From positions 1 to 33,851 of the forward strand of contig JAQTQU010000011.1 in the NCBI GenBank assembly GCA_028712095.1: a DNA stretch of 33,851 nt, read 5' to 3'. Below the pieces are notes generated by a model. The model saw nothing but the letters and a program-made list of their open reading frames with translations, had not been told where the DNA came from and ran no database searches. Source of the DNA: Candidatus Peribacteraceae bacterium. Lineage in GTDB: Bacteria > Patescibacteriota > Gracilibacteria > Peribacterales > Peribacteraceae. A program made the translations under genes and the position numbers. Shown here piece after piece: positions 19,246 through 33,851 of this stretch. Position 1 is the stretch's first letter. Each line of letters starts with the position of its first letter.

Positions 19246-19329
19246 TGTAGAATATTTTCTACACTATTTGTGTATCATTTTATGGCTTTCTAAAGCGCAA
19301 AAATTGAAGTTATCCAACAGACTGTTGGA
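19246..19329. promoter_or_regulatory. Two palindromes (candidate operators) between the S23-like gene and array copy 1
   Basis: TGTAGAA-TATT-TTCTACA (19246-19263) and TCCAACAG-A-CTGTTGGA (19313-19329), both perfect. Confidence 0.45.
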
Positions 19330-19393
19330 CAATAATGACTATACGTTTCAGACTGAAGATGCTGGGGCCGGATTGTATGCCCAGTATTTTTCT

Positions 19394-21070
19394 ATGCCTG
19401 CCTGCAAGCACTGCTCATCGGCGTTCGCGGTGACGAAGGATGATCTGGCGATGCTCGATTCCTTAAGCCCGGTGATCGGAGGGCAGAAGCTCCCGATTCC
19501 TTCACCCACACTCTGCCCTGACTGCAGATTGCAACGCAGGCAAACGCACGTCAACCACGTCAACCTCTATGAGCGGAAGTGTGACCTCACGGGAGCGCAA
19601 ATCATTTCGAACATCCATCCCGCTTCGCCCTACAAAGTCTACGCACAGGAGGATTGGTACAGCGACAAGTGGGACCCGCATGACTATCAGAGGGAGTTTG
19701 ATTTCTCACGGCCGTTTTTCGGGCAGTGGAAAGAACTCTTTGATGTCGTACCCCGGCCCAATCTGATGACGGGCTACGAGTTCGATGAAAACTGCGACTA
19801 TACGAACTATGCCGGCAAGAATAAGGATTGCTATCTGATTTTTGATTCTGACCAAAACAGGGATTGCTATTACAGCTATAGCTGTAACCAGTGCGTGAAC
19901 TGCGTCGGGTGCTTCCGCGCGCGGAAATCGGAGCTCTGCTACGAGTGCATCGATTGTGTGAAATGTTACGGCTCGTCGTACCTGCAGGATTGCGACAATT
20001 GTTCGGAATCGATGTTCCTCAAGAACTGCACGGGCTGCAAAAAATGCCTGATGTGCAGCAACCTGAAAAACAAGGAGTACTACGTTTCGAACAATAAGGT
20101 CACCAAGGAGGAATTTGAGAAGTTTCGTGCCATGCTCGGAACCCATTCGGTCGTGGAATCCGCGCGCGAGCGTTTTGAGAAACTCAAGCTGGAGTTTCCG
20201 CAAAAGTTCATGCACGGCGTGCAGAATGAAAACGTCGTGGGTGACTATCTGGTGCATTGCAAGAACGCGTACCACTGCTTCGACAGTGAAGATCTCTGGG
20301 ATTGCCGCTATGTCTACCAGGGGTTCATGCCGCTGAAAGACTGCATGGACATTCACGAGTGCGGCGAAGCCGAAAGGCTCTACGAATGTTCGGTCGCGGG
20401 GTACGAGTTGCACAGCTGTTTGTTCTGCAATCACACGCTCGCGAGCATGAGTGACATGATCTACTGCCAATTGTGTCACCATTCAAGACACTGTTTTGGT
20501 TGTGTGGGTCTGCGGCGCAAGAAGTACTGCATCCTCAATAAGCAATACACGAAAGAGGAGTACGAGGCACTCGTCCCGAAGATCATTGAACACATGCGGA
20601 AGACCGGAGAATGGGGCGAATTCTTTCCAACCGAGACGTCGTGTTTTGCCTACAACGAGACTCTGGCTCAGGATTACTTTCCGCTCACGAAAAAAGAGGT
20701 TCTGGCGCGCGGCTGGCGGTGGTTCGATGACGTAGAAAGGAAGGACCAGTACCTCGGCCCCAAGGTCGAACTGCCGGATAGCATCGACGATGTCACCGAT
20801 GACATCTGCAAGAAAATACTGACCTGCGCCGAGAGCGGCAGGCAGTATAAGATTATTCCGCAGGAACTCAAATTTCACAGACAGTTGCACGTGCCGCTGC
20901 CCCGGACCAGTTTTTTCACGCGGTACCGCAAGCAGCTTCAGATGCGTAATAAGCGCATCCTCTACGAACGCACGTGTGGCGCATGCGGCGTTCCGATTCA
21001 AACCAGCTACGCACCGGATCGCCCCGAGAAGGTGTACTGCGAATCTTGTTATCTTGCTTCTGTGTATTGA
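19394..21070 (+). CDS. Cysteine-rich multi-zinc-ribbon protein, array copy 1
   Basis: MPACKHCSSAF...LCPDCRLQRR...CYYSYSCNQCVNCVGC...CILNKQYTKEEYEALVPKII...YCESCYLASVY*; ATG at 19394 aligns with the other copies. Confidence 0.85.
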   Translation: MPACKHCSSAFAVTKDDLAMLDSLSPVIGGQKLPIPSPTLCPDCRLQRRQTHVNHVNLYERKCDLTGAQIISNIHPASPYKVYAQEDWYSDKWDPHDYQREFDFSRPFFGQWKELFDVVPRPNLMTGYEFDENCDYTNYAGKNKDCYLIFDSDQNRDCYYSYSCNQCVNCVGCFRARKSELCYECIDCVKCYGSSYLQDCDNCSESMFLKNCTGCKKCLMCSNLKNKEYYVSNNKVTKEEFEKFRAMLGTHSVVESARERFEKLKLEFPQKFMHGVQNENVVGDYLVHCKNAYHCFDSEDLWDCRYVYQGFMPLKDCMDIHECGEAERLYECSVAGYELHSCLFCNHTLASMSDMIYCQLCHHSRHCFGCVGLRRKKYCILNKQYTKEEYEALVPKIIEHMRKTGEWGEFFPTETSCFAYNETLAQDYFPLTKKEVLARGWRWFDDVERKDQYLGPKVELPDSIDDVTDDICKKILTCAESGRQYKIIPQELKFHRQLHVPLPRTSFFTRYRKQLQMRNKRILYERTCGACGVPIQTSYAPDRPEKVYCESCYLASVY

Positions 21071-21105
21071 GATGCAAAATCCCTTCTTCTCTATTGGCGC
21101 AACAA

Positions 21106-21182
21106 GATTCGCCCTGACCCTTCGGCAAGCTCAGGGTCACTCTGAGCAGAGTCGAAGATTGAGCGCAGCGCAGCGGAGTCGA
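21106..21182. repeat. Dispersed palindromic repeat cluster downstream of copy 1
   Basis: CGCCCTGACCCTTCGGCAAGCTCAGGGTCACTCTGAGCAGAGTCGAAG...GGAGTCGAA. Confidence 0.7.
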
Positions 21183-21218
21183 ATGGGTGAAGAGTGTTAC
21201 CTTTCCGCTGTCTACTAG
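21183..21218 (+). other. Mini-ORF/tail duplicate 1: MGEECYLSAVY*
   Basis: ATGGGTGAAGAGTGTTACCTTTCCGCTGTCTACTAG; resembles the ESCYLASVY* terminus of copy 1. Confidence 0.7.
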
Positions 21219-21469
21219 CGCATGCCAACGGATTTCTTCAGCTTCGGGATCTGGCTCACCTCGATGTCATCGAGACGATGGTCGAGTCCTTCAATTTGGG
21301 AGGAGAGATCGACGTACACGCGTTCCACTTTGTTTTCCATGCGATCCATGCGGACCGTCAGATCATTCCTTACAATGTCGATACGTTGCGTGAGTCTCTT
21401 TTCCATCCCACGCATGTGGTCCAAAAGAACCGCAGCGGTTACGCCGGTGCGGGGAGATCTCTTTGCCAT
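21215..21469 (-). CDS. Small coiled-coil protein A
   Basis: MAKRSPRTGVTAAVLLDHMRGMEKRLTQRIDIVRNDLTVRMDRMENKVERVYVDLSSQIEGLDHRLDDIEVSQIPKLKKSVGMR; paralogue at 30022. Confidence 0.75.
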   Translation of the reverse strand: MAKRSPRTGVTAAVLLDHMRGMEKRLTQRIDIVRNDLTVRMDRMENKVERVYVDLSSQIEGLDHRLDDIEVSQIPKLKKSVGMR

Positions 21470-21600
21470 TTATGCTGAGAGTATTCGAAGCATGGGCGGT
21501 CATCGTAGCAGTGATTTTTATCCGGCGGCAATGCTTGAAAAAATATCTGAGTGGACAAGTTGTTTTTCCTCTTCATGGAGCCACATTCCCCGTTCCATGC

Positions 21601-23265
21601 ATGGGTAGAACGTGTGCCCACTGCGGCATGACATTCGCTCTTCTTCCAAAGGAGCAGGAACTTTACCGAACGTTGGATGTACCGGCTCCCGTGGAGTGCC
21701 CCGCCTGCCGCCGCCAGCGGCGTCTCATGTTCCGTAACTTTTTTCACCTCTACCACCGCACCTGCGATCTGACGGGCAAGAAGATCATCTCGATGTACGA
21801 CAAGGACTCCGAGTCCCCCGTCTATGAGCTCCATGAGTGGTGGGGTGACAAGTGGGATGGATTGACCTATGGGATAGATATGGATTTCTCCAGTCCATTC
21901 TTTGCACAGGTGGCCAAGCTCCATCGGACCGTCCCGCGAATGTCCGTGATGAATACGAATTGCGAGAATTGCGATTACTGCAATATGTCATTCGGGAGCA
22001 ACGATTGTTATCTTGTCTTCGGCAATGTCGGGAACGAAGACTGCTCCTACGGCCATATCGTCTGGCACTCGAAAGACTGTTATGACTGCCTCTACACCTA
22101 TCGGTCGGAATTCTGTTACGAGTGTATCGATTGCGTGCAGTGTCACTCACTCTCCTTCTCACGAGACTGCGACAATTGTTCTGCCTCCATGTTCCTTGTG
22201 CACTGCACGGGCTGCCACGATTGCTTCGGGTGCGTGGGCCTTCATGACAAGCAGTATCACATCTTCAACGTTCCTCATACGAAAGAGGAGTATCGGCAGA
22301 AACTCTCTTCACTCAATACCGGCAACGTGCAAACGATTGCAATGGCAAAGGAACGAGTAAAAGCGCTCATCGGAAAGGAGATCGTGAAGTACTACCACGG
22401 TTTCAATTGCGAAAACGTCATCGGCGATTATCTCTACAATTGCAAAAATATCGTCGAAGGCTATGACCTAAAGAACTGCGAGGACTGCCTCTACGGCGCG
22501 ACGCTCGAGAGTTTCAAAGACAGCGCTGACTGTAATTTCTCCGGACTGATCGCAGGGGCGCAGGCAGAACTCTGTTATCAATGTCTTACCATCGGAAGCA
22601 GTGTGCGGCTCCTTGGATGCCACTGCTGCCAGCAAAACAATGCTGATTTGTTCTACTGCGATAATTGCTATTCCTGCAAGGATTGCTTCGGTTGCGTGGG
22701 ACTCAAACAGAAACGCTACTGCATCCTCAATAAGCAGTACACGAAGGAGGAATATGAGTCGCTTCTCCCCAAATTCGTCTCACACATGAAAAGCATTGGC
22801 GAATGGGGACAATTCTTCCCCCGAGATCTCTCTCCTTTCGGTTACAACGAAACGATGGCACAGGAGTACTTCCCGATGGCAAAGGAGCAGGTACTCAAGA
22901 AAGGGTGGAAGTGGAAGGAGGAGCCGGAGGACGAGGAGAGGAGTTACCTCGGGCCGCCCGTTGCCATTCCCGAAGACATCAAAGACGCCGATGATCCCAT
23001 CTGCTCCGCAATCCTCCGCTGCGAAGTGACGGGCAAACTCTTCAAGATCATTCCCCAGGAATTCCAGTTCTACCGTACTATGAAACTCCCTCTGCCGCGG
23101 AAATGTTTCGTGCAGAGACTGAGAGAGCGCTTCGCACTACGAAATCCCCGCACTCTCTGGAATCGCACATGCCAAAAGTGCAAGAAAGCGATCGAGACGA
23201 CGTATGCGCCCGAGCGGCCCGAAATCGTCTATTGTGAAAATTGCTATCTGAAAGAAGTTTACTGA
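21601..23265 (+). CDS. Cysteine-rich multi-zinc-ribbon protein, array copy 2
   Basis: MGRTCAHCGMTFALL...CPACRRQRR...CDLTGKKIISMY...ETTYAPERPEIVYCENCYLKEVY*. Confidence 0.88.
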   Translation: MGRTCAHCGMTFALLPKEQELYRTLDVPAPVECPACRRQRRLMFRNFFHLYHRTCDLTGKKIISMYDKDSESPVYELHEWWGDKWDGLTYGIDMDFSSPFFAQVAKLHRTVPRMSVMNTNCENCDYCNMSFGSNDCYLVFGNVGNEDCSYGHIVWHSKDCYDCLYTYRSEFCYECIDCVQCHSLSFSRDCDNCSASMFLVHCTGCHDCFGCVGLHDKQYHIFNVPHTKEEYRQKLSSLNTGNVQTIAMAKERVKALIGKEIVKYYHGFNCENVIGDYLYNCKNIVEGYDLKNCEDCLYGATLESFKDSADCNFSGLIAGAQAELCYQCLTIGSSVRLLGCHCCQQNNADLFYCDNCYSCKDCFGCVGLKQKRYCILNKQYTKEEYESLLPKFVSHMKSIGEWGQFFPRDLSPFGYNETMAQEYFPMAKEQVLKKGWKWKEEPEDEERSYLGPPVAIPEDIKDADDPICSAILRCEVTGKLFKIIPQEFQFYRTMKLPLPRKCFVQRLRERFALRNPRTLWNRTCQKCKKAIETTYAPERPEIVYCENCYLKEVY

Positions 23266-23274
23266 GCAATTTTC

Positions 23275-23333
23275 ACCCTGCCTGCCCGTCCGTAGCCCGA
23301 AGGGCGAAGGCGGGAGCGAGGGAAGCGAGTCGA
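23275..23333. repeat. Dispersed repeat downstream of copy 2
   Basis: CACCCTGCCTGCCCGTCCGTAGCCCGAAGGGCGAAGGCGGGAGCGAGGGAAGCGAGTCGA. Confidence 0.65.
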
Positions 23334-23369
23334 ATGGGCGAGGAATGTTATTTGAAGGAAGTGTATTAG
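23334..23369 (+). other. Mini-ORF/tail duplicate 2: MGEECYLKEVY*
   Basis: ATGGGCGAGGAATGTTATTTGAAGGAAGTGTATTAG. Confidence 0.7.
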
Positions 23370-23443
23370 CGAGTATGTAGTATTCAGTATGCGGTATGAG
23401 GGGTTTGCTGAATACTGCATACTGATTCCTGTATACTTCGCAG

Positions 23444-25138
23444 GTGCAGAAGACCTGCGCCGAATGCGGCACGTCCTTCGAGATTGCTGATGCTGATCAG
23501 GTGCTCTTAGATCACGTTGCCCCTGCGTTTGGCGGCAAGCGTGAAACCATACCCCCCGCCACGCTCTGTCCCACTTGTCGCGAGATTCGTCGCTATGCTT
23601 GGCGTAATGAGTGGAGCCTGCACCGACGCATGTGCAGTCGCACAGGCAAGGAAATGATTTCCATGTATCGGCCGGATGCCCCGTTTCCCGTTTACGACAA
23701 CGCGATCTGGTGGAGCGACGATTGGGATGCGAAGGAATACGGAAAAGTCATAGATTTCTCACGTCCATTTCTTGCACAGTTTCTTGCACTTGTTCGCGCG
23801 GTTCCGAAGATGGCGCGTATTCAGCAGGGCGAAAATATCAATGCGCAGTATACGAATTGCGCATCGTACAACAAGAATTGTTATCTTCTGTTCTCTTCGA
23901 ATAATAATGAGGACTGCCAGTATGGAACACACATTCACTACTGCAAGAGTTGCATTGATGGCTACCATGTGCACCGCTGTGAACTGTGTGCGCACTGCGT
24001 CAACTGCACAGATTGCTATGCTCTTATCGATGGTCGTGATTGTGTCAACTGCGCATCGAGTTGGTTCCTTAAGAGTTGCAGCGGATGTCACGATTGTATC
24101 GGATGCGTCAACCTGTACCAGAAACAGCATTGCGTCTTCAATGAGCAATTAACGAAGGAAGCTTATGAGAACAGGAAGCAAACATTGCTCCGCGGCGAGT
24201 ATTCAGCTTTTGAAGATCTCCGTAAGCGCTGGAAGACGTTCATCATTGGGTTTCCACGCCGTTCCTACGAAGGTGTGCAGAACCAGAATGTCACGGGGAA
24301 CTACGTATCCCGGAGCAAGAATGCGTTTCAGTGCTATGACTGCGAAGACCTTGAAGACTGCAGTCGCTGTTGTCGGTGTTTGAATCTCAAAGACTGCAGT
24401 GATATCAGCAACTATGGCGGCATCGGAACGAATGAGCTGTGCTACGAATGTGAAGGCATCGGTCACGGTGTCGTGCGTGTTTGCTTCTCCAAATTGATCT
24501 GGGGAGGTTGCAGTGACATTTTCTACGGCTACGAATGTTTCGCCAGTCATCATCTCTTTGGCTGTGCAGGGCTCAAGCACGCACAGTATTGCATTCTGAA
24601 CAAGCAGTATTCGGAAGAAGAGTACAACCACTTAGTGCCGAAGATCATTGAGCGGATGCGGAGGGACGGAGAGTGGGGGGAATTCTTTCCTGCGCAGGAA
24701 TCGCCGATCGGGTACAACGAGAGTATTGCCCAAGACCTCTATCCGCTCTCGAAAGAGAAAATCTTGAAGCGTGGATTCCGTTTCAGCGAGCGAAGCGATG
24801 ATGTATCGGCAGCCAAAAACGCACTCCCCGCGCATCAGCTTCCGGATGGTATCGATGCCGCTTCGGATGATTTTCTCCGCTCTCTAATTATCTGTGCGAT
24901 CAGTGATCGTCAATTCCTTCTCACAAAGAGGGAACTTGAGATGTACCGTATGCTGCGCCTTCCACTTCCGCGGCTGCATCCCGACGAGCGTCACCGACTG
25001 CGTATGTCATACCTTAATCCGCACCGACTCTGGAATCGTCCGTGTGCCAAGTGTAAGAAGTCCATCGAGACCACGTACGCGCCTGAGCGGCCGGAAATCG
25101 TCTATTGCGAAGAGTGTTATTTGAAGGAGGTATATTGA
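23444..25138 (+). CDS. Cysteine-rich multi-zinc-ribbon protein, array copy 3 (GTG start)
   Basis: VQKTCAECGTSFEIADADQVLLDHVAPAFGGKRETIPPATLCPTCREIRR...ETTYAPERPEIVYCEECYLKEVY*; TATACT 6 nt before GTG. Confidence 0.88.
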   Translation: MQKTCAECGTSFEIADADQVLLDHVAPAFGGKRETIPPATLCPTCREIRRYAWRNEWSLHRRMCSRTGKEMISMYRPDAPFPVYDNAIWWSDDWDAKEYGKVIDFSRPFLAQFLALVRAVPKMARIQQGENINAQYTNCASYNKNCYLLFSSNNNEDCQYGTHIHYCKSCIDGYHVHRCELCAHCVNCTDCYALIDGRDCVNCASSWFLKSCSGCHDCIGCVNLYQKQHCVFNEQLTKEAYENRKQTLLRGEYSAFEDLRKRWKTFIIGFPRRSYEGVQNQNVTGNYVSRSKNAFQCYDCEDLEDCSRCCRCLNLKDCSDISNYGGIGTNELCYECEGIGHGVVRVCFSKLIWGGCSDIFYGYECFASHHLFGCAGLKHAQYCILNKQYSEEEYNHLVPKIIERMRRDGEWGEFFPAQESPIGYNESIAQDLYPLSKEKILKRGFRFSERSDDVSAAKNALPAHQLPDGIDAASDDFLRSLIICAISDRQFLLTKRELEMYRMLRLPLPRLHPDERHRLRMSYLNPHRLWNRPCAKCKKSIETTYAPERPEIVYCEECYLKEVY

Positions 25139-25194
25139 TCGGCTGTTGGCTTGCAGCTTGTAGTTTTTGGCTGTTCGCTGCGTGCTCGTGTTGC

Positions 25195-25241
25195 TTGATC
25201 TTCACTTGGAGAAGACCTATAATGGTACTGTATTTAGTACC
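25195..25241 (+). promoter_or_regulatory. Sigma70-like promoter with palindromic operator for the toxin-antitoxin pair
   Basis: TTGATC (25195-25200), 17 bp, TATAAT (25218-25223), then GGTACT-GTATTT-AGTACC (25224-25241). Confidence 0.7.
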
Positions 25242-25256
25242 TTATTTCTTCCGATT

Positions 25257-25502
25257 ATGAATACCATCACGCTCCAGGATCTCAAGTCCCGCGGCTCCAA
25301 GGCCATCCCAGACGGGAAGGTCGTCTACCTCATCGTCAACTCCAAAGTGAAGGCCGCCATCGTGCCGCCCGATCAAATGGAGGCGCTCGTCGAGGCATTC
25401 GAAGAGCTGGAGGATATTCAAGCCATCGAAGCAGCGAAAAATGAGCCTCTGTACACATGGGAACAGGTTTTTCCGGAAGATAAGAAGAAGAAAAAGCGAT
25501 GA
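25257..25502 (+). CDS. Antitoxin-like protein
   Basis: MNTITLQDLKSRGSKAIPDGKVVYLIVNSKVKAAIVPPDQMEALVEAFEELEDIQAIEAAK; stop overlaps toxin start (ATGA). Confidence 0.7.
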   Translation: MNTITLQDLKSRGSKAIPDGKVVYLIVNSKVKAAIVPPDQMEALVEAFEELEDIQAIEAAKNEPLYTWEQVFPEDKKKKKR

Positions 25503-25765
25503 CATACGTTCTCCTTTTCCGACGGGCGGCGAGGAAGGTCATGGGGCGGCTCCCTCCGATGTACCGTCAGGCCATCAAAGACGTATTGCGATCTTTGCCG
25601 CAGAACCCGTTTCCCGCCGGGTGCCTGCAGTTGCGCACCGCCGAGGGACGGTACTATCGCGTCCGCGTCGGTTCGTACCGCATCGTCTACGAAGTGACAC
25701 ACGAAATCCGCATCATCACGATTATCCGCGTGGGGCACCGGAGGGAGGTCTATAGAAATCTTTAA
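25499..25765 (+). CDS. RelE/ParE-family toxin
   Basis: MTYVLLFRRAARKVMGRLPPMYRQAIKDVLRSLPQNPFPAGCLQLRTAEGRYYRVRVGSYRIVYEVTHEIRIITIIRVGHRREVYRNL. Confidence 0.88.
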   Translation: MTYVLLFRRAARKVMGRLPPMYRQAIKDVLRSLPQNPFPAGCLQLRTAEGRYYRVRVGSYRIVYEVTHEIRIITIIRVGHRREVYRNL

Positions 25766-25793
25766 GCGAAGAGAGAAGTGCTACACTCTGCCC

Positions 25794-27460
25794 ATGTCAG
25801 GCACCTGCGCCGAATGCGGAACACCCTTCGAGATCACAGCAGACGATCAGAAGTTTTTGGATGATTTCGCCGTTCCCGCGCCCAAATCGTGCCCCGAATG
25901 CCGGCTCACGCGGCGCATGATCGAGCGAAACGCCCGCCGACTCTACTGGCGCACGTCCGACGCCACAGGCAAACGTATTCTCTCCCAGTACCATGCCGAC
26001 CACCCGTTTCCGGTTTACACGCCGGAGGAATGGTGGAGCGACCGCTGGGACGGACTCACGTTCGGCCGTGCCATCGATTTCGCGCGTCCGTTCTTTCAGC
26101 AGTTTCTGGAACTCAAGAACGTCGTGCCGCACCAGGCGCGTTTTCTGATTCAGGACACGATCGAAAACAGCGATTACGTGAACTGCGCCGGTTTCCTCAA
26201 GAATTGCTATCTGTCTTTTGAAGTGGATTACAACGAGGACTGTTACTACAGCAATCGCGTCTACCACTGCAAGAATATGGTCGATTGCAGTAACTGTTAC
26301 GAGAGCGAAATTTGCTACGAGAGTCTCGACTGTACCGGCTGCCACAGCGTCTTCTATTCGCAAGATTGTCAGAATTGTTCCGGAAGCTCTTTCCTGAAGA
26401 ACTGCATCGGCTGCCGTGACTGCATTGGTTGCATCAACCAGCGGCAGAAGCAACATATGATCCTGAACGAACAATATTCCAAAGAGGAATTCACGAAGCA
26501 CAGGGCGGCGCTGCATCTGGATACAACGGATGGCATCAGATCCTTTCTTAAGAAGGCAGAAGAGTTTTTCTCGGGTCAGCCCCGGCGCTACGCGCAGACG
26601 GAGCGAAACGAACACTGCACAGGGGATCATCTCTACGATTCCAAGAATGCGTTCTCGTGCATGGACTGCAAGGACTTGGAGGACTGCCGGTACTGCGCCA
26701 AGGTGGCGAGGGCGTGAAATCCTGCATGGACTACAACTCCTGGGGCGACAAAGCGGAGCGTCTGTACCAATGTTCGGCGTGCGGGAACAACGCCTTTAAC
26801 CTGAAATTCTGCACGACGTGTGCCACGAATAATGCCGATCTCACGTACTGCGACAGTTGCGTCGGATGCCACGATTGTTTCGGATGCGTGGGTTTGAAGA
26901 AGCGGCAGTATTGCATCCTCAATAAGCAGTACACGGAAGAGGAATTTGGGAAATTGCGCGCCCAGCTCATTGCGCACATGCAGAAATCCGGTGAGTGGGG
27001 CGAGTACTTTCCCAAAGAGGTCTGCCCCTTCGCATTCAATGAGACGATTGCGATGGAATACTTCCCAATCGGAAAAGAGGAGGCGATTCGTCGTGGCTAC
27101 AAATGGCGCGATGAGGTGGATGAGCCGCTCGACGTTGAGAAGGTGATTCCTGCTGCCGCGCTTCCCGATACGATTGCAGAGATTCCCGATGATGTGCTCA
27201 ATTGGGCAATTACTTCACAGAAGACCAAGCGTCCTTTTCGTATCACCAAACAGGAGTTGGAGTTCTACAGAACACACTCTCTGCCTCTGCCGCACCTGCA
27301 TCCCGAAGAGCGGCATGAAGACCGCTTAAAGAGGCGCCCGCCGCGCCGTCTCTGGGAGCGGACCTGCGCCAAGTGCGGGAAAGAAGTGGAGTCCACGTTC
27401 CAACCTTCGAGGCCGGAGATCGTGTACTGTGAATCGTGTTATCTGAAAGAAGTGTACTGA
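25794..27460 (+). pseudogene. Cysteine-rich multi-zinc-ribbon protein, array copy 4, split by a frameshift
   Basis: Frame of 25794..26717 covers the N-terminal half and ends ...DLEDCRYCAKVARA*; the frame of 26657..27460 continues the family from about GGEGVKSCMDYNSWG to YCESCYLKEVY*. A one-nt loss around 26699-26717 would explain it. Confidence 0.75.
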
Positions 27461-27593
27461 GGCTGAAACGCTTGCTCTGTGCAAGGGATTATGTACCTTG
27501 CAAACAATCTCGCCCGGTGAGGTCCAAAAGATTCTGCCGGGATATTTGCATTTCCAGGGCCCGTTCTTCGGTTGTACCATTAGTCTTGATTCC

Positions 27594-28253
27594 ATGAAGG
27601 CCAAGCCCTATAATAACCGTGCTAAACCCACAGCCCTCTCGCTGGCAACGGCGGGACGGCTGTCTTCAAAAAGAAGCAAGAAAGCCATCGTATTCATCGA
27701 CGGAAGCAACTGGTATCACAAGCTTCGCTTGCTGCTCAATGCCAATGTTCCATCCAAGAAAGGTGCGATCAAACCTCCTATTCATTTCGATCTGAGAGGA
27801 TTCGTTGAGCAGTTGGTTAGTCCGGATGTTCTTCTGGAAATTCGCTACCACATTGGGAAAGTGCGGCGCATTCAGGGCGACGAGAAGAGCGAGCAGCTCT
27901 ATACCAAGCAACAGAGACTCATTGGTTTTCTTCAGACACAGAGTGTCACCATTGGCTTTGGTCATCTCATTCCCTATCCGGATGGCATCTTCCATGAGAA
28001 GGGCGTGGATGTGCTGCTCGCGGTCGAGATGATCCGGTTCGCGCGGGAAGGCAACTATGACCGCGCGTACCTCATCAGTTCCGATACGGATCTCGTGCCG
28101 GCCGCGGAAGAATGTCGGAGACTCAAGAAAGAAGTGGTGTACGTCGGGAGCTCGGTGCACGGGCAATCCTTCGGACTCACGAAGGCGTGCCAGAGGACCA
28201 TCCTTCTCCAGCCCAAAGATGTTGCGTCTTTCGTTCCACCAAAGCCCATTTGA
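27594..28253 (+). CDS. NYN-domain (LabA/DUF88-like PIN-fold) putative RNase
   Basis: KKAIVFIDGSNWYHKLR..., GVDVLLAVEMIRFAREGNYDRAYLISSDTDLVPAAEECRRLKKEVVYVGSS: conserved Asp motifs FIDGSN, KGVDV, SSDTDL. Confidence 0.85.
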   Translation: MKAKPYNNRAKPTALSLATAGRLSSKRSKKAIVFIDGSNWYHKLRLLLNANVPSKKGAIKPPIHFDLRGFVEQLVSPDVLLEIRYHIGKVRRIQGDEKSEQLYTKQQRLIGFLQTQSVTIGFGHLIPYPDGIFHEKGVDVLLAVEMIRFAREGNYDRAYLISSDTDLVPAAEECRRLKKEVVYVGSSVHGQSFGLTKACQRTILLQPKDVASFVPPKPI

Positions 28254-28255
28254 CC

Positions 28256-29962
28256 ATGTCTGGTTCGACTCCGCTCACCACAGGCAAGACCTGCCCCGTC
28301 ACCGGCCGCACGTTCACGGTTTCGCCTGCCGAGATGGAACTTCGAAAGAAGCTCGGTGTCGAAGGAGAGCCTCTGATCCATCCCATTGCGCGCTGGCAGG
28401 TTCTCGGTGCCTTCTGGCAGCACTGGGCGCTCCACAAGAGGAAGTGCGACAAGACCGGAAAACAAATCATTTCCGTCTTCTCCGAGGACTGTCCTTACCC
28501 CGTATGGCACAAAGACGAGTGGATCAGGCATGCCGATCCTCCCTCTGCTGAACCTGATCTTTCAAAACCGCTCTTCCCGCAGATATGGGAGTTTTTTCAG
28601 CGTTGCCCCATTGCACACAATTTGGGGGCGGGAAACGAAAATTGCGAATACACGGATGACTGGTGGTACTCCCGAAACTGTTACCTCAGTCACTCCGGCG
28701 TCGAGGATGAGGATCTACACTACTGTTTCCGTGTTTTGCGCGTGAAAGATTCCCAGTTTGCGGTCTTTTCGTTCGATTCACAGCGATGCCTCGATATCAC
28801 ATTCTCCCATTTCTGTTCCCGGACAATCTTTGCCCTGCACAGTAGGCAGTGCAGTGATAGTGCTTTTCTCTATGACTGCCGCAACTGTCAGCATTGCATG
28901 TTCTGCTCGAATCTTCGCAATAAATCGTATTGTTTTGCCAATCAGCAGCTTACTAAAGATGCGTACGAGAAGCGCGCAGTGGCTTGGGACTTCCGGTCTC
29001 GTGCTGTCTATGAGCAAGCTAAGCAGGAATTAAAAAAAATGCTTCAGAAGAACGCTTGGCATCGTGCCCTCTTGATTGACCTTTCGGAGGATACGACGGG
29101 CAACTACCTTGATGAGTGTAGGAAATGTATCAATTGCTTCTTCACGACAACGAATGTTGAGGATTGCATCAACTGCTTTCGTGGTGGTGTGAATTCCAAA
29201 GATTGCTTGGATTGCGTGAATTTCTACGAAGACGATCTGGTGTATTACAGCTCATCGGCTCTGGACAAATGTTACGATGTTCGTTTTGGCTATGGCCTTA
29301 TCCAATGCAAGTATACGGAATACTGTGCGCAGTGTTTTCAGTGCCAGCACTGTTTCGGGTGTTGCGGACTGGTGGGAAAGAAGTATCACATTTTCAACAA
29401 GCCATACGAGCCGGCCGAGTATGAGCAGAAGAAGGCAGAGGTCGTCGCAGCCATGAAGAAGACAGGGGAGTATGGGCAGTTCTTCCCTGCGCACTTTGCA
29501 GCAAATCCCTATGAAGAGAGCCTTGCCGGTTTTCACTGGCCGCTCACGACGGAGCAGGGCAAGAAGATGGGGTTTCGAATGCGCGAAAGAGAGGAAGAGC
29601 GTGAAGCGGAGGCTGTTGACTCCTCGCAGGTTCCCGATCGCTGCGATCAGGCTGACCCGCCCGTTCCGACCGACGGTCAGGCGGGTGAATCCATAACGAA
29701 GTCACCGTTCTGGGATGCGGCTGCCAAGCGGCCGTTCCAGATTCTCAAGGAGGACATCGCCTTTGCGCAGGATCTTAAAATCCCACTCCCGTACACCTAC
29801 TACATGCGGCGGCTGCAGGAGAATTTCCGCCTCATTCCCTTTGATGGCGAACTGCGGACAACGATTTGCGGCAAGTGCCAGAAGCAGGCACAGACAAGTT
29901 GGCCGAAGGAATACGATGGCAGGATTTTGTGCGAATCCTGCTACCTTAAAGAAGTATACTGA
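28256..29962 (+). CDS. Divergent cysteine-rich multi-zinc-ribbon protein, array copy 5
   Basis: MSGSTPLTTGKTCPVTGRTFTVSP...CDKTGKQIISVFSEDCPYPVW...CFGCCGLVGKKYHIFNKP...ILCESCYLKEVY*; start 2 nt after NYN stop. Confidence 0.85.
   Translation: MSGSTPLTTGKTCPVTGRTFTVSPAEMELRKKLGVEGEPLIHPIARWQVLGAFWQHWALHKRKCDKTGKQIISVFSEDCPYPVWHKDEWIRHADPPSAEPDLSKPLFPQIWEFFQRCPIAHNLGAGNENCEYTDDWWYSRNCYLSHSGVEDEDLHYCFRVLRVKDSQFAVFSFDSQRCLDITFSHFCSRTIFALHSRQCSDSAFLYDCRNCQHCMFCSNLRNKSYCFANQQLTKDAYEKRAVAWDFRSRAVYEQAKQELKKMLQKNAWHRALLIDLSEDTTGNYLDECRKCINCFFTTTNVEDCINCFRGGVNSKDCLDCVNFYEDDLVYYSSSALDKCYDVRFGYGLIQCKYTEYCAQCFQCQHCFGCCGLVGKKYHIFNKPYEPAEYEQKKAEVVAAMKKTGEYGQFFPAHFAANPYEESLAGFHWPLTTEQGKKMGFRMREREEEREAEAVDSSQVPDRCDQADPPVPTDGQAGESITKSPFWDAAAKRPFQILKEDIAFAQDLKIPLPYTYYMRRLQENFRLIPFDGELRTTICGKCQKQAQTSWPKEYDGRILCESCYLKEVY
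29652..29690. repeat. Short palindromic repeat inserted in frame in copy 5
   Basis: ACCCGCC (29655-29661) / GGCGGGT (29680-29686); encodes the low-conservation segment DPPVPTDGQAGE. Confidence 0.55.
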
Positions 29963-29969
29963 AACAGGA

Positions 29970-29997
29970 TTCGCCCTGAGCGAAGTCGAATGGGCGA
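29970..29997. repeat. Palindromic TTCGCCCTGAGCGAAGTCGAATGGGCGA element
   Basis: TCGCCC/GGGCGA arms; same family as 4391-4428. Confidence 0.7.
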
Positions 29998-30025
29998 GGA
30001 GTGCTATTTGAAAGAAGTTTACTAG
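29990..30025 (+). other. Mini-ORF/tail duplicate 3: MGEECYLKEVY*
   Basis: ATGGGCGAGGAGTGCTATTTGAAAGAAGTTTACTAG. Confidence 0.7.
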
Positions 30026-30396
30026 CGTATGCCCACTATCCTCTTCAGTTTTGGCACCTGCACCACTTCGAGATCATCCAGCCGCTTATCGATATTTCCC
30101 ACGCTCACCTTGATCCATGCGATGTCGTTCTCCATGCGGTCCATCCGTGAGGTTAGGCGGCTATCCACTTTTGTCAGGTCTGCGCGGATGCCGCCGATTT
30201 CCCGCATCAGGCGCTGTTCCATGCCGCGCATGTGGTCTAAGAAGACAGCAGGGGTGATGCCACGGTCGTCCGTGGACGACGTGGCGCGGCCGGTACGGGT
30301 AGATTTCCTGACTATGGGCGGCAAGCGTAGCAGAGGGGTGGAGGCCGGTGATAGCCCCGCAGAAATATTTTGGGTAGACAAGACACTTTTCCGCAT
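30022..30396 (-). CDS. Small coiled-coil protein B, paralogue of 21215..21469 (start uncertain; conserved part begins near 30324)
   Basis: ...RKSTRTGRATSSTDDRGITPAVFLDHMRGMEQRLMREIGGIRADLTKVDSRLTSRMDRMENDIAWIKVSVGNIDKRLDDLEVVQVPKLKRIVGIR*. Confidence 0.65.
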   Translation of the reverse strand: MRKSVLSTQNISAGLSPASTPLLRLPPIVRKSTRTGRATSSTDDRGITPAVFLDHMRGMEQRLMREIGGIRADLTKVDSRLTSRMDRMENDIAWIKVSVGNIDKRLDDLEVVQVPKLKRIVGIR

Positions 30397-30423
30397 CGCG
30401 GAGCCATATTTTCCGTTCCATGT

Positions 30424-32133
30424 ATGAGCGGAACAAGCACACATCCTGACACCGGCCCGCGTATCTGCAGAAACCCCTGGTGCAAGCAACCTTTCGAGGT
30501 CACGCAAAGTGATCTCGCCCTCTTAGACGAGCTTTCTCCCGCATACGGAGGCAGGAAGTATCCGATTCCTCCTCCTCTGCTCTGCCCCGATTGCAGGCAG
30601 CAGCGTCGGCTCGCATGGCGCAACGAGCGTCAGCTCTACCGGGATACCTGCGACCGGTGCGGCACGTCCATCGTGTCCATGTACGCTCCGGATTCTCCGT
30701 ACTTCGTCTACTGCTATGACTGCTGGTGGGGCGACAAATGGGATGCGATGCAGTATGGGATGGATATTGATTTCACGCGGCCGTTCCTCGCGCAACTCCA
30801 GGACCTGCGCCTGCGCGTGCCGCGGCTCTACCTCTTCAACCTGCATAGCGAGAATTGCATCTACACAAGCCATTCTGCGAACAACAAGAACTGCTACATG
30901 GGCGTGGCGCTCGGCAAGTGCGAGGATTGCTACTACGGTCACTGGGTGCTGGAGAGCAAGAACGTGGTGGATTCGATGTACAGCGAATACTGCGAGCGAT
31001 GTTACGAATGTTCGTACTGTTTGCACTGCTTCGGGACGTCGTTCTCCCAATCCTGTCAGAACTGCCGCGACTGCCTCTTCTGCTACGAGTGCAAGGGATG
31101 CGAGCGGTGCATCGGCTGTGTGGGGCTTCGACAGAAAGAGCTCCATATCTTCAATCAGCCCGTTTCGGCGCAGGAGTATGCGCGCGTGAAAGAAGAGCTC
31201 CTCACTTCACCACAGACGTTCGCCGCTTTCACTGAGAAGTGGCGTGCGTTCAAGCGCACATTCCCGCACCGTTTTGCGCTTCAGATCAACTGCACCAACG
31301 TGTCCGGCGATGATTTGTATAACTGCAAGAACGTGAAGCAGTGCTTCAACGGCCGTGACGTGGAGGACAGCGCGTACATTTATGATTCGGGCAAAAACAA
31401 GGACTCGATGGACACCTATGAGCATGGCTGGCTGGTGCAGAGCCAGCTCAACTACGAATTGCACGGGGGGATGGCGGGCTATCGTCTCCTCTTCTGCCAC
31501 ATCTGTGCGGAGGGAAGGGATCTGCTCTATAGCGACTGCTGTCATAACAACTCCGCGGATCTCTTCGGCTGTGTTAGTCTCAAACACCAGCGTTACTGCA
31601 TTCTGAACAAGCAGTACACGAAGGAGGAGTACGAGCAGTTGGTCCCGAGGATCATCGAAGGGATGCAGAAGGACAGAACATGGGGTGAGTTCCTCCCTGC
31701 CGCACTCTCGCCGTTCGCTTACAACGAATCCGTCGCGCAGGAATATTTCCCTCTCACAAAAGATGAAATCATCAAGCGCAAATGGCGATGGAAGGCGCTG
31801 GAGGAGAAAGCATTCTCTCTCAAAATGTCCGTCATTCCTCCGGACATCCGGGGCGTGACGGACGATATCCTGCGCCAGACCCTTGCCTGCGCGACATGCG
31901 GAAAACAGTTCAAAATCATCCCTCAGGAATTGCGCTTCTATCGGGAGATGCTTCTGCCGGTTCCCTTATCCTGCCACGATTGCCGACATCATCGCCGCAT
32001 GGCGCTTCGCAATCCACGCCATCTCTGGTCCCGCCAGTGCGCGAAGTGCGGGAAGGGGATCGAAACTACCTATGCTCCCGACCGGCCGGAGCAGATCTAT
32101 TGCGAGGAGTGCTACCTGAAGGAGGTGTACTGA
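30424..32133 (+). CDS. Cysteine-rich multi-zinc-ribbon protein, array copy 6 (most complete set of zinc ligands)
   Basis: CRNPWCKQPFEV...CPDCRQQRRLAWRNERQLYRDTCDRCGTSIVSMYAPDSPYFVYCYDCWW ... CATCGKQFKIIPQEL...CHDCRHHRRMALRNPRHLWSRQCAKCGKGIETTYAPDRPEQIYCEECYLKEVY*. Confidence 0.9.
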   Translation: MSGTSTHPDTGPRICRNPWCKQPFEVTQSDLALLDELSPAYGGRKYPIPPPLLCPDCRQQRRLAWRNERQLYRDTCDRCGTSIVSMYAPDSPYFVYCYDCWWGDKWDAMQYGMDIDFTRPFLAQLQDLRLRVPRLYLFNLHSENCIYTSHSANNKNCYMGVALGKCEDCYYGHWVLESKNVVDSMYSEYCERCYECSYCLHCFGTSFSQSCQNCRDCLFCYECKGCERCIGCVGLRQKELHIFNQPVSAQEYARVKEELLTSPQTFAAFTEKWRAFKRTFPHRFALQINCTNVSGDDLYNCKNVKQCFNGRDVEDSAYIYDSGKNKDSMDTYEHGWLVQSQLNYELHGGMAGYRLLFCHICAEGRDLLYSDCCHNNSADLFGCVSLKHQRYCILNKQYTKEEYEQLVPRIIEGMQKDRTWGEFLPAALSPFAYNESVAQEYFPLTKDEIIKRKWRWKALEEKAFSLKMSVIPPDIRGVTDDILRQTLACATCGKQFKIIPQELRFYREMLLPVPLSCHDCRHHRRMALRNPRHLWSRQCAKCGKGIETTYAPDRPEQIYCEECYLKEVY

Positions 32134-32142
32134 CAAATATAT

Positions 32143-32176
32143 TTAACATTCCTTCTCCATCGTCTATACTCTCCTT
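32143..32176 (+). promoter_or_regulatory. Promoter for a leaderless TrmB-like transcript
   Basis: TTAACA (32143-32148), 16 bp, TATACT (32165-32170), 6 nt, ATG (32177). Confidence 0.55.
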
Positions 32177-32977
32177 ATGCGTCAGAAGATCGAGCACACT
32201 CTTCGGCTGGCTGGTCTGCGTGAGGAGGAGGTCAAAATGTACCTCCACCTGCTTATGCTCAAGCGTGCCTCGATGGCCGAGCTGATTGCAGAAACGGGCC
32301 TCAATGTAATGACAGCCTACCGTACGATGAAACGCCTGCAGGAGCGCGGTCTTGTGCAGTCGTTTGATATCAACCAGAAGCAGTCGGTCTATGCACCCCT
32401 CTCGCTCGGGGCTCTGATCCAGACTCTGGGGGCCGAAGAGAGATCGATTCGTCGGCTGCAGCTTGCACTCAAAGATCTCGATCGATTTCTCCCTTTCATT
32501 GGCACAGGAGAACAGACAGGCGATCGGTCAGAAGAGCAGGAGCCCATAATGATCCGCCAGGGGCTCGATGCGTTCCGCGAAGAGTATTTAAGGCTTCCCG
32601 ATCTATGCAACGATGAATTTCTCTGTATGGGTTCCATGCAGAATTATTGGGATGTTGCCGGAATGTCCGACGAAGCGCCTGAGGAGCTGGCATTTCGTCA
32701 CAATCGCTTTAAGCGCGGCATGTTCTGTCGCGTCTTCAACACGCATTCGCCCGAAGCAGAGACCTTTGCAAAACGTGATTCCAAAGAACTGCGCACTACG
32801 CGCCTTGTTGATTGCATTCCCGTTGCCAAAGATTATCTCGGATACGCCAAAGATCATGTGAGGCATTTCATCTGCGACAAGGATCACCCGCGTGTGATCA
32901 TCATCCGTCATCCGGAACTCGTTGCGCTCTACCGTGATCAGTTCGAGCGCATGTGGCAAGCAGGGGTCGGAGCCTGA
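32177..32977 (+). CDS. TrmB-like transcriptional regulator
   Basis: LRLAGLREEEVKMYLHLLMLKRASMAELIAETGLNVMTAYRTMKRLQERGLVQSF wHTH plus a C-terminal effector region. Confidence 0.8.
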   Translation: MRQKIEHTLRLAGLREEEVKMYLHLLMLKRASMAELIAETGLNVMTAYRTMKRLQERGLVQSFDINQKQSVYAPLSLGALIQTLGAEERSIRRLQLALKDLDRFLPFIGTGEQTGDRSEEQEPIMIRQGLDAFREEYLRLPDLCNDEFLCMGSMQNYWDVAGMSDEAPEELAFRHNRFKRGMFCRVFNTHSPEAETFAKRDSKELRTTRLVDCIPVAKDYLGYAKDHVRHFICDKDHPRVIIIRHPELVALYRDQFERMWQAGVGA

Positions 32978-33036
32978 TCTTCACAGGCAACTGTGAAGAT
33001 TGGTTGCAGAAAAATACTTCGTAGCTCGTTTTCTGC
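32977..33036 (+). terminator. Two consecutive hairpins after the TrmB-like gene (terminator or leader structure)
   Basis: ATCTTCACAG-GCAA-CTGTGAAGAT (32977-33000, perfect, GNRA loop) and GCAGAAAA...TTTTCTGC (33006-33036). Confidence 0.5.
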
Positions 33037-33092
33037 ATGTTCTTCGATTCAGTTACCACGCTGCCCCCGGAATCCGTAGACTGGGGGATGTC

Positions 33093-33851
33093 ATGGCATT
33101 CCGTTGCAGACAGTGTTCGGCGGTATTCGAGGTCACCCCCGCTGATCTCGCGTTCCTCGACAAGCTCTCTCCTGTGTTCCATGGCAAGAAGTACGCCCTT
33201 CCGCCTCCCGCGCTCTGCCCCGGCTGCCGGCAGCAGCGTCGGCTCCTGTGGCGCAACGAGCGCGCTCTGTACCGGAGGACGTGTGATCTCTGCAAAAAGT
33301 CGATCATTTCCATGTACTCTTCGGGTTCCGCGTTCCCCGTCTACTGCACGGAGTGCTGGTGGTCGGACCAGTGGCATCCCAGTGATTTCGGTCGCGACGT
33401 CGATTTCGACCGGCCGTTCCTCACGCAAATCAAGGAATTGCAGAACAGCGTTCCGCGTCTGGCACTCAATGTCATCAATAACGAGAATTCCGACTTCATC
33501 AATCACTCCGGCTCCAACAAGAACTGCTACCTGATCTTTGCCGCGGAGTTCAATGAAGATTGTCTGTATGGCTACCAGGTGATCAAGTCCACCGGCTGTA
33601 CCGACACCTGCGACTGCACCGAGTCGGAGTACTGCTATGAGGTGATTGATGTGGATAAGTGCCACTCGCTGCTCTTCTCGCAAAACTGCACGAACTGTTC
33701 CTCATCCGCTTTCCTGTTTGACTGTAAAGGATGCACAGATTGTCTGCTCTCGACAAATCTGCGTAACAAGCACTACGTCGTCCGTAACAAGCAGTATTCC
33801 AAAGAGGAGTATCTCCGCTTAAAACAGGAGGTGACGGATACGATTGCGAAA
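33093..33851 (+). CDS. Cysteine-rich multi-zinc-ribbon protein, array copy 7 (truncated by window end; absent from the ORF track)
   Basis: MAFRCRQCSAVFEVTPADLAFLDKLSPVFHGKKYALPPPALCPGCRQQRRLLWRNERALYRRTCDLCKKSIISMYSSGSAFPVYCTECWWSDQW...NKNCYLIFAAEFNEDCLYGY...NKHYVVRNKQYSKEEY; open through 33851. Confidence 0.88.
   Translation, partial: MAFRCRQCSAVFEVTPADLAFLDKLSPVFHGKKYALPPPALCPGCRQQRRLLWRNERALYRRTCDLCKKSIISMYSSGSAFPVYCTECWWSDQWHPSDFGRDVDFDRPFLTQIKELQNSVPRLALNVINNENSDFINHSGSNKNCYLIFAAEFNEDCLYGYQVIKSTGCTDTCDCTESEYCYEVIDVDKCHSLLFSQNCTNCSSSAFLFDCKGCTDCLLSTNLRNKHYVVRNKQYSKEEYLRLKQEVTDTIAK

Follow-up and report, generated by a model that had tools for sequence, protein, structure and literature searches.

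Probable displaced gene ends beside a palindromic repeat in the genome of a Candidatus Peribacteraceae bacterium

Introduction

The window analyzed in this work is a whole stretch of 33,851 nucleotides from a Candidatus Peribacteraceae bacterium (assembly GCA_028712095.1, contig JAQTQU010000011.1), which from 19268 to 33851 carries a tandem array of genes for Cys-rich treble-clef proteins of 560-650 residues, a family for which a single genome of a relative can have as many as 16 matches. A first-pass annotation had pointed to three mini open reading frames (mini-ORFs) behind copies 1, 2 and 5 of this array (21183-21218, 23334-23369 and 29990-30025); their positions and translations, MGEECYL(SA/KE)VY*, were confirmed, and copies 3, 4 and 6 have clean ends. 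Here we propose that the mini-ORFs are probably the stranded original 3' ends of the host genes, each displaced by a block lying about ten codons before the original stop and arisen in two steps. The block brings together three parts: a replacement end that has a stop of its own, a short spacer which often ends in an inverted copy of that end, and a palindromic repeat resident in the genome.

Materials and Methods

The source genome (1.25 Mb in 67 contigs) is referred to as G000, and the other G-numbers denote genomes of relatives. Gene-end duplications were sought across 594 kb (40 stretches plus the window) by a scan anchored on stops and starts and independent of the repeat, with reversed sequence as the control; a first, unanchored scan was too noisy for use. 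Outer and working ends were compared with the orthologues from four genomes of the same genus, and some of the homology searches ran on protein and DNA queries that had been concatenated. The 13 leading residues of the 180-residue family query were erroneous; they fall beyond the matches that were used or at their margin. Figures given as "by eye" are unscripted counts. The gene names typA, uvrA, metG, secA, L28, atpG, sod, PPIase and TrpR-like are backed by Pfam or NCBIfam; guaA is named from a GATase match plus reading, and all remaining genes from reading alone.

Results

The mini-ORFs belong to a structure in which an intact gene end with its stop (or start) is followed by a short spacer, the palindromic repeat and a second copy of the end which differs mostly at third positions. 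This structure is not confined to the family and was seen at typA, uvrA, metG, guaA, atpG, secA, sod, rpL28, PPIase and others, at both 3' and 5' ends. The ends flanked by the repeat comprise the N-ends of typA (MSIRNIAI), uvrA (MDAIVVKGA), metG, a GMP-synthase-like gene, a glycosyltransferase and a TrpR-like gene, and the C-ends of ribosomal protein L28, PPIase and the family genes; the scan added sod, atpG, secA, a 20-residue glycosyltransferase-like N-end and others, some of them with other palindromes. At the threshold used there were 32 gene-end duplications against 9 in the reversed sequence, a few of the hits being ordinary tandem repeats, and the claim that the mini-ORFs duplicate the preceding gene ends (nine-residue matches) thus stands above chance. 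Hits recurred at sod (G000 and G001) and typA (G000 and G007), and a palindrome with a displaced end was present at the same position in 6 of the 26 secA ends read. Such recurrent sites may have been hit independently, or may go back to old insertions held in common and passed on through recombination.

When up to three mismatches were allowed, GTCGAATGGGYGARGARTGYTAY was found at just the three mini-ORF sites in the 1.25-Mb genome (control 0), and GTCGAATGGGYGA alone had four occurrences, the fourth one at typA. Copies of the repeat with the 30-bp tail away from the family, which the first-pass annotation had named as the finding that would make the tail part of the repeat, were not found in this genome; the repeat does adjoin the displaced ends of other genes. 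The ATG of each mini-ORF does come from the repeat, as previously proposed, with the duplicated part starting 5 nt further, at (Y)GARGAR. At the window copies the two ends are 33-118 nt apart, and this interval contains no gene, and hence no integrase.

Comparison with uninterrupted relatives addressed which of the two copies is the original. For typA, G002 has the upstream region followed directly by ATGAGTATCCGGAACATTGCCATCATCGCG, and G000 has the same upstream region followed by ATGAGTATCCGTAACATTGCCATCA, the repeat, the spacer, ATGTCCATTCGGAACATAGCAATCA and the gene body. The uvrA outer end matches the G001 and G002 sequence exactly, and the working end differs from it at 4 of 26 nt; the atpG outer end is one base off that of G001, and its working end differs at 10 of 30 nt, changing 8 of 10 codons. 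All of these changes are synonymous. The outer ends of typA, metG and rpL28 run on into flanks common to relatives (the G003 flank in the case of metG), and over ten genes the outer end was nearer to the uninterrupted orthologues in nine (sign test, P 0.011). At the copy-1 position G004 has an uninterrupted original end, CEECYLASVY*, and then TACTAGCGCATGC, and G067 has EECYLKEVY*, then CGCATACC and then a minus-strand coiled-coil gene, which is the arrangement found behind copy 5. These comparisons show that the outer copy is the native original end, beside its native flank, and that the inner working end is a newcomer on a native gene body. When the outer and working ends are compared, 20 differences lie at first, 10 at second and 55 at third codon positions (55/85 at the third; P ~3e-9), and of the changed codons 48 are synonymous and 15 are not. 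The third-position bias noted in the first-pass annotation is therefore real; as a sign of selection it did not hold, reflecting instead the coding history of the two ends before they were brought together.

Repeat-adjacent tails of the family also differ from the rest: CES or CEN, and not the commoner CEE, was found in 20 of 22 such tails versus 15 of 67 others (89 distinct tails; Fisher P 1.2e-8). Tandem arrays of the family were found throughout the order, and in G001 the copy-1 block is shared, a pair of displaced ends is stacked, and further displaced ends are split by nested repeats.

In the secA gene, end and body follow different patterns of similarity. Over the 60 codons before CPCG, G000 and G002 are 82% alike, in line with the genome relationships, and after CPCG the same two genomes are 56% alike. 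G000, G001 and G016, which belong to two genera, have 46-54% similarity in these 60 codons and 88-89% in the end that follows CPCG. A scan of the whole collection for GA(K/R)K.DGTPIKYKHCHG returned ten records from Wolfebacteria, Zambryskibacteria, Falkowbacteria, Campbellbacteria, other Patescibacteria and Peribacteria/Peregrinibacteria; the ends of the last group match G016 and G001, and several Parcubacterial records have the same end type with no evident displaced copy. Three of the records outside that last group, JAKAHN010000014, QIJB01000102 and JAJYXK010000007, likewise carry a different palindrome with another secA end beyond it (by eye). For atpG, the blocks of G000 and G004 are identical at 108 of 109 nt and the bodies at 266 of 300 (the genes are 89% alike), with mismatches at 6/30 nt of the outer ends, 13/51 upstream and 34/300 in the body. 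This pattern shows that blocks pass from one species or genus to another, in tracts of roughly 60-180 bp.

Four other candidate explanations of the two ends were rejected. Replacement of the whole gene by a foreign allele does not agree with the native-like bodies of typA, uvrA, atpG and secA, and therefore the foreign part is essentially the duplicated end, the spacer and the repeat. Divergence of an initially exact duplicate would have placed the changes in the unconstrained outer copy, and they are found in the working copy. A target-site duplication is not compatible with spacers that are unlike after the two stops and with ends that differ synonymously, nor is adenine-directed mutagenesis of the diversity-generating retroelement type with differences that are not limited to A.

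With one mismatch allowed, the core of the repeat (GAGYRRAGTCGAANGG) has 27 copies in G000, about 10 of which have a gene end on one side and its duplicate on the other, and many relatives carry the repeat as well. As a dispersed short palindromic repeat in many copies it answers the description of REP/REPIN sequences. The repeat also occurs without a gene end, in frame within hrcA, polIII epsilon and a DHOD subunit, sites which are empty in relatives, and lone insertions were found within dead gene ends of G001; it is in these three coding copies alone, and not in the gene-end blocks, that it resembles the in-frame Rickettsia palindromic elements. The hrcA copy lies in the window itself (845-880), as does a further member of the repeat family in a TraG/VirD4-like ATPase gene (2085-2145). 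No Rfam match was obtained for the insert up to E 0.1, neither exact nor blastn matches to viruses or plasmids were found, and a literature search for the repeat sequence gave zero hits. The three inserts have no plus-strand site resembling an intrinsic terminator and a single minus-strand match (29984-29970).

A feature missed by the first-pass annotation is that the last 9-11 nt of the spacer, abutting the repeat, are the last codons of the working gene in inverted and nearly perfect form. Across 16 units the mean pairing run was 9.5 nt with the end of the same unit versus 3.6 with the ends of other units, and the three window inserts gave single-strand DNA fold z values of -2.5 to -3.0. We read this inverted copy as a trace of fold-back synthesis, with selection for a hairpin as the alternative.

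Y1_Tnp domains were identified in 12 of the 16 relatives tested (G000 included), with a distribution that does not follow that of the repeat: in G003 the repeat is present without a Y1 transposase hit, and in G021 there are Y1 hits without an exact repeat. In G000 one such domain (C39:10468-10809) lies within a 983-codon open frame, and a similarly long frame is present in G006.

Discussion

We infer that each block first arose through insertion of a repeat followed by one-sided repair. A palindromic repeat would insert just within a gene end, often before YG, severing 7-20 codons, and the cut end would then be rebuilt, by one-sided homologous recombination or break repair, from the homologous gene of another cell. 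After copying of the donor end and a little of its flank, an illegitimate joint to the repeat would be made, since the homology beyond the repeat would be too short for its clean removal; snap-back of the copied strand would leave the inverted copy, finished blocks could spread through ordinary short-tract recombination, and the displaced end would persist as a decaying fossil. Patescibacteria have been reported to be competent and to possess recombination genes (PMC12455944), and palindromes are described as hotspots of double-strand breaks through hairpins, SbcCD having been studied in E. coli (PMC4245961).

Several observations weigh against this origin. Insertion at one and the same site time after time could instead be the work of an enzyme with site specificity. 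The inner and outer ends of PPIase are 30/31 identical with unlike spacers, and those of a Campbellbacteria secA are identical over ~57 nt up to the stop (by eye), again with unlike spacers; both are a poor fit to a foreign donor. Among the spacers compared with the native flanks of relatives, clear resemblance was seen just for PPIase and a weak one for typA, and the inverted copy is missing at metG, guaA, rpL28, yerC, sod and secA (by eye).

A different origin, in which the whole block (recoded end, spacer and palindrome) is a non-autonomous mobile cassette moved by a site-specific enzyme in trans, as a miniature of the prophages that insert into gene ends, would account for the re-use of insertion points at secA, typA, sod and the family genes, often before YG, for the intact transfer of the atpG block between G000 and G004, and for the Y1 transposase domains of the relatives. 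We nevertheless consider it unlikely: each gene has its own specific end, and one element could not carry a dozen different ones; the repeat is also found inserted with no gene end attached, other palindromes occupy the same secA site in Parcubacterial records, the presence of the repeat does not follow that of the transposases, and common sites are equally explained by shared ancestry or spread by recombination. The broader idea of an integrase-less mini-prophage, with gene-end cassettes (a palindrome plus the recoded end of a conserved gene) crossing species and classes of the candidate phyla radiation (CPR), re-using sites and displacing ends in genes which still work, is in our opinion doubtful to a similar degree.

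The first-pass annotation had seen the mini-ORFs either as scars of lost paralogues or as short peptides under selection. The scar part holds; a lost paralogue mostly does not. Deletion of neighboring tandem paralogues by unequal crossing-over would suit a family which forms tandem arrays and the stacked tails of G001, but the same structure is present at the single-copy genes typA, uvrA, atpG, secA and metG (in the first four of which the outer copy is the gene's own end), and uninterrupted orthologues have the same flank at the copy-1 position in G004 and the copy-5 arrangement in G067. This explanation is contradicted for the single-copy genes and very unlikely in general, and might still hold for an individual instance, for example G001 L190:12492. 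Selection on translated peptides, which we regard as highly improbable, would agree with open frames that have a stop, with differences mostly at third positions and with the retention of EECYL..VY plus stop in the copy-1 displaced ends of both G000 and G001. It is not supported because displaced ends decay: that of rpL28 is frameshifted, that of secA carries another insertion in G004 and is read past its stop in G016, and those of G001 family copies are cut by nested insertions. In addition, the bias is expected of two sequences each of which was once the end of a real gene, the start codon belongs to the repeat, and the copy-1 displaced ends of G000 and G001 differ at 6/30 nt (two of them residue-altering), similar to the spacer at ~8/47 (by eye). 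The same decay, together with the absence of an Rfam match, counts against an intervening sequence that is excised from the RNA or bypassed by the ribosome, with both ends in use. Exact removal of the block would restore the native gene in 5' and 3' cases, and the hairpins are stable, but the block itself supplies a complete end or start, and we find this idea scarcely credible.

Among known systems, the displaced ends are most readily compared with prophages e14 in icd and Rac in ttcA of E. coli, which insert inside a gene end, supply a replacement end and retain the original (PMC6379469). In both settings a foreign replacement end keeps the gene alive, the original is displaced beyond the insert (icd' 163 bp), and 3' as well as 5' ends are involved; a replacement end with a displaced original was found here at secA, atpG, uvrA, typA and the family genes. 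The present inserts differ in being tens to ~180 bp long (hundredfold smaller), in having a palindromic repeat and no integrase, and in affecting many genes per genome. Rickettsia palindromic elements and intragenic MITEs or REPs (PMC10969869, PMC3116915, PMC3733652) are likewise dispersed short palindromes within genes, some of them in frame, but those are inserted and tolerated in frame, whereas the present repeat comes together with a replacement end of foreign origin. Homology-facilitated illegitimate recombination (PMC3240628) also combines one homologous with one illegitimate joint, and the blocks have a seamless native body on one side and the repeat joint on the other, as a joining event of this kind may have left them; those were laboratory events, and here the illegitimate joint would be at a palindromic repeat, at gene ends and repeatedly. 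In the removal of mobile elements by natural transformation (PMC4795794) incoming homologous DNA similarly counters inserted elements, but under the two-step origin which we favor, one-sided repair would leave the repeat and the old end behind. No description of the phenomenon was found in the open-access papers covered by the search.

On this reading, gene ends of streamlined uncultured bacteria are replaced piecemeal by foreign tracts of ~60-180 bp, far below the size at which transfer is usually detected. The repeat and the fossil end would form a built-in marker which dates and orients each event, and small-scale recombination, repeat insertion and repair could therefore be counted directly in CPR genomes. 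It should also be borne in mind in annotation that about 10 of the 27 repeat copies in G000 bring a spurious mini-ORF, a false start or a pseudo-end.

Other Features of the Window and Its Relatives

Positions of the features at copies 1, 2 and 5 are given in Table 1. The two coiled-coil genes are related to each other and have counterparts behind uninterrupted family genes in G004 and G067.

Table 1. Features around copies 1, 2 and 5 of the family array.
Feature	Position	Strand	Basis or remark
Cys-rich treble-clef family gene copy 1 (CESCYLASVY*)	19268..21070	+	ORF; weak C-end match to PF23477, below curated cut-off
Copy 1 working (probable replacement) 3' end, CGAATCTTGTTATCTTGCTTCTGTGTATTGA	21039..21070	+	Common to G001 and G004:C7; unlike uninterrupted G004 end
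Inverted copy AACAAGATTCG of copy 1 working end, abutting repeat	21101..21111	+	11 consecutive pairs; DNA fold z -2.7
Palindromic repeat, compound copy (CCCTGACC...GTCGAATGGG)	21112..21187	n/a	
Probable displaced original 3' end, copy 1 position (EECYLSAVY*)	21188..21218	+	Uninterrupted in G004, same flank
Mini-ORF 1 (displaced end 21188..21218 plus repeat-derived start)			
Coiled-coil gene, stop overlapping displaced end 1 (CTAG)	21215..21469	-	Native neighbor of original end
Family gene copy 2 (CENCYLKEVY*)	21463..23265	+	ORF
Inverted copy GCAATTTTCA of copy 2 working end	23266..23275	+	10 consecutive pairs; DNA fold z -3.0
Copy 2 palindromic repeat with nested second repeat	23276..23338	n/a	
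Probable displaced original 3' end behind copy 2 (EECYLKEVY*)	23339..23369	+	Gene-end duplication scan
Family gene copy 5 (CESCYLKEVY*)	28112..29962	+	ORF; insert-free orthologues in G001, G003, G004
Copy 5 working (probable replacement) 3' end	29931..29962	+	
Inverted copy AACAGGATTCG of copy 5 working end	29963..29973	+	9 consecutive pairs; DNA fold z -2.5
Palindromic repeat CCCTGAGCGAAGTCGAATGGG behind copy 5	29974..29994	n/a	
Probable displaced original 3' end behind copy 5 (EECYLKEVY*)	29995..30025	+	Uninterrupted counterpart in G067
Second coiled-coil gene, stop overlapping displaced end 5 (CTAG)	30022..30507	-	

At 23372-23437 the window has an inverted repeat (AGTATGTAGTATTCAGTATGC...) ahead of copy 3, and similar tracts (GTATCGAGTATTCAGTATC) precede the family genes of G015. 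The Campbellbacteria record QIJB01000102.1 (L294) has, at about 2032, a duplication of the secA end around a different palindrome, which may represent a very recent event. At L035 (1437-1550, reverse strand) an HMG-CoA-synthase-like N-end has a 54-nt in-frame insert made of the repeat and a recoded SAI, with AGTGCCATC for TCCGCCATC; the displaced end is there translated as part of the protein, and the site is empty in G002. An array of 40-nt tandem repeats was also observed in L118, at about 19348-19550.

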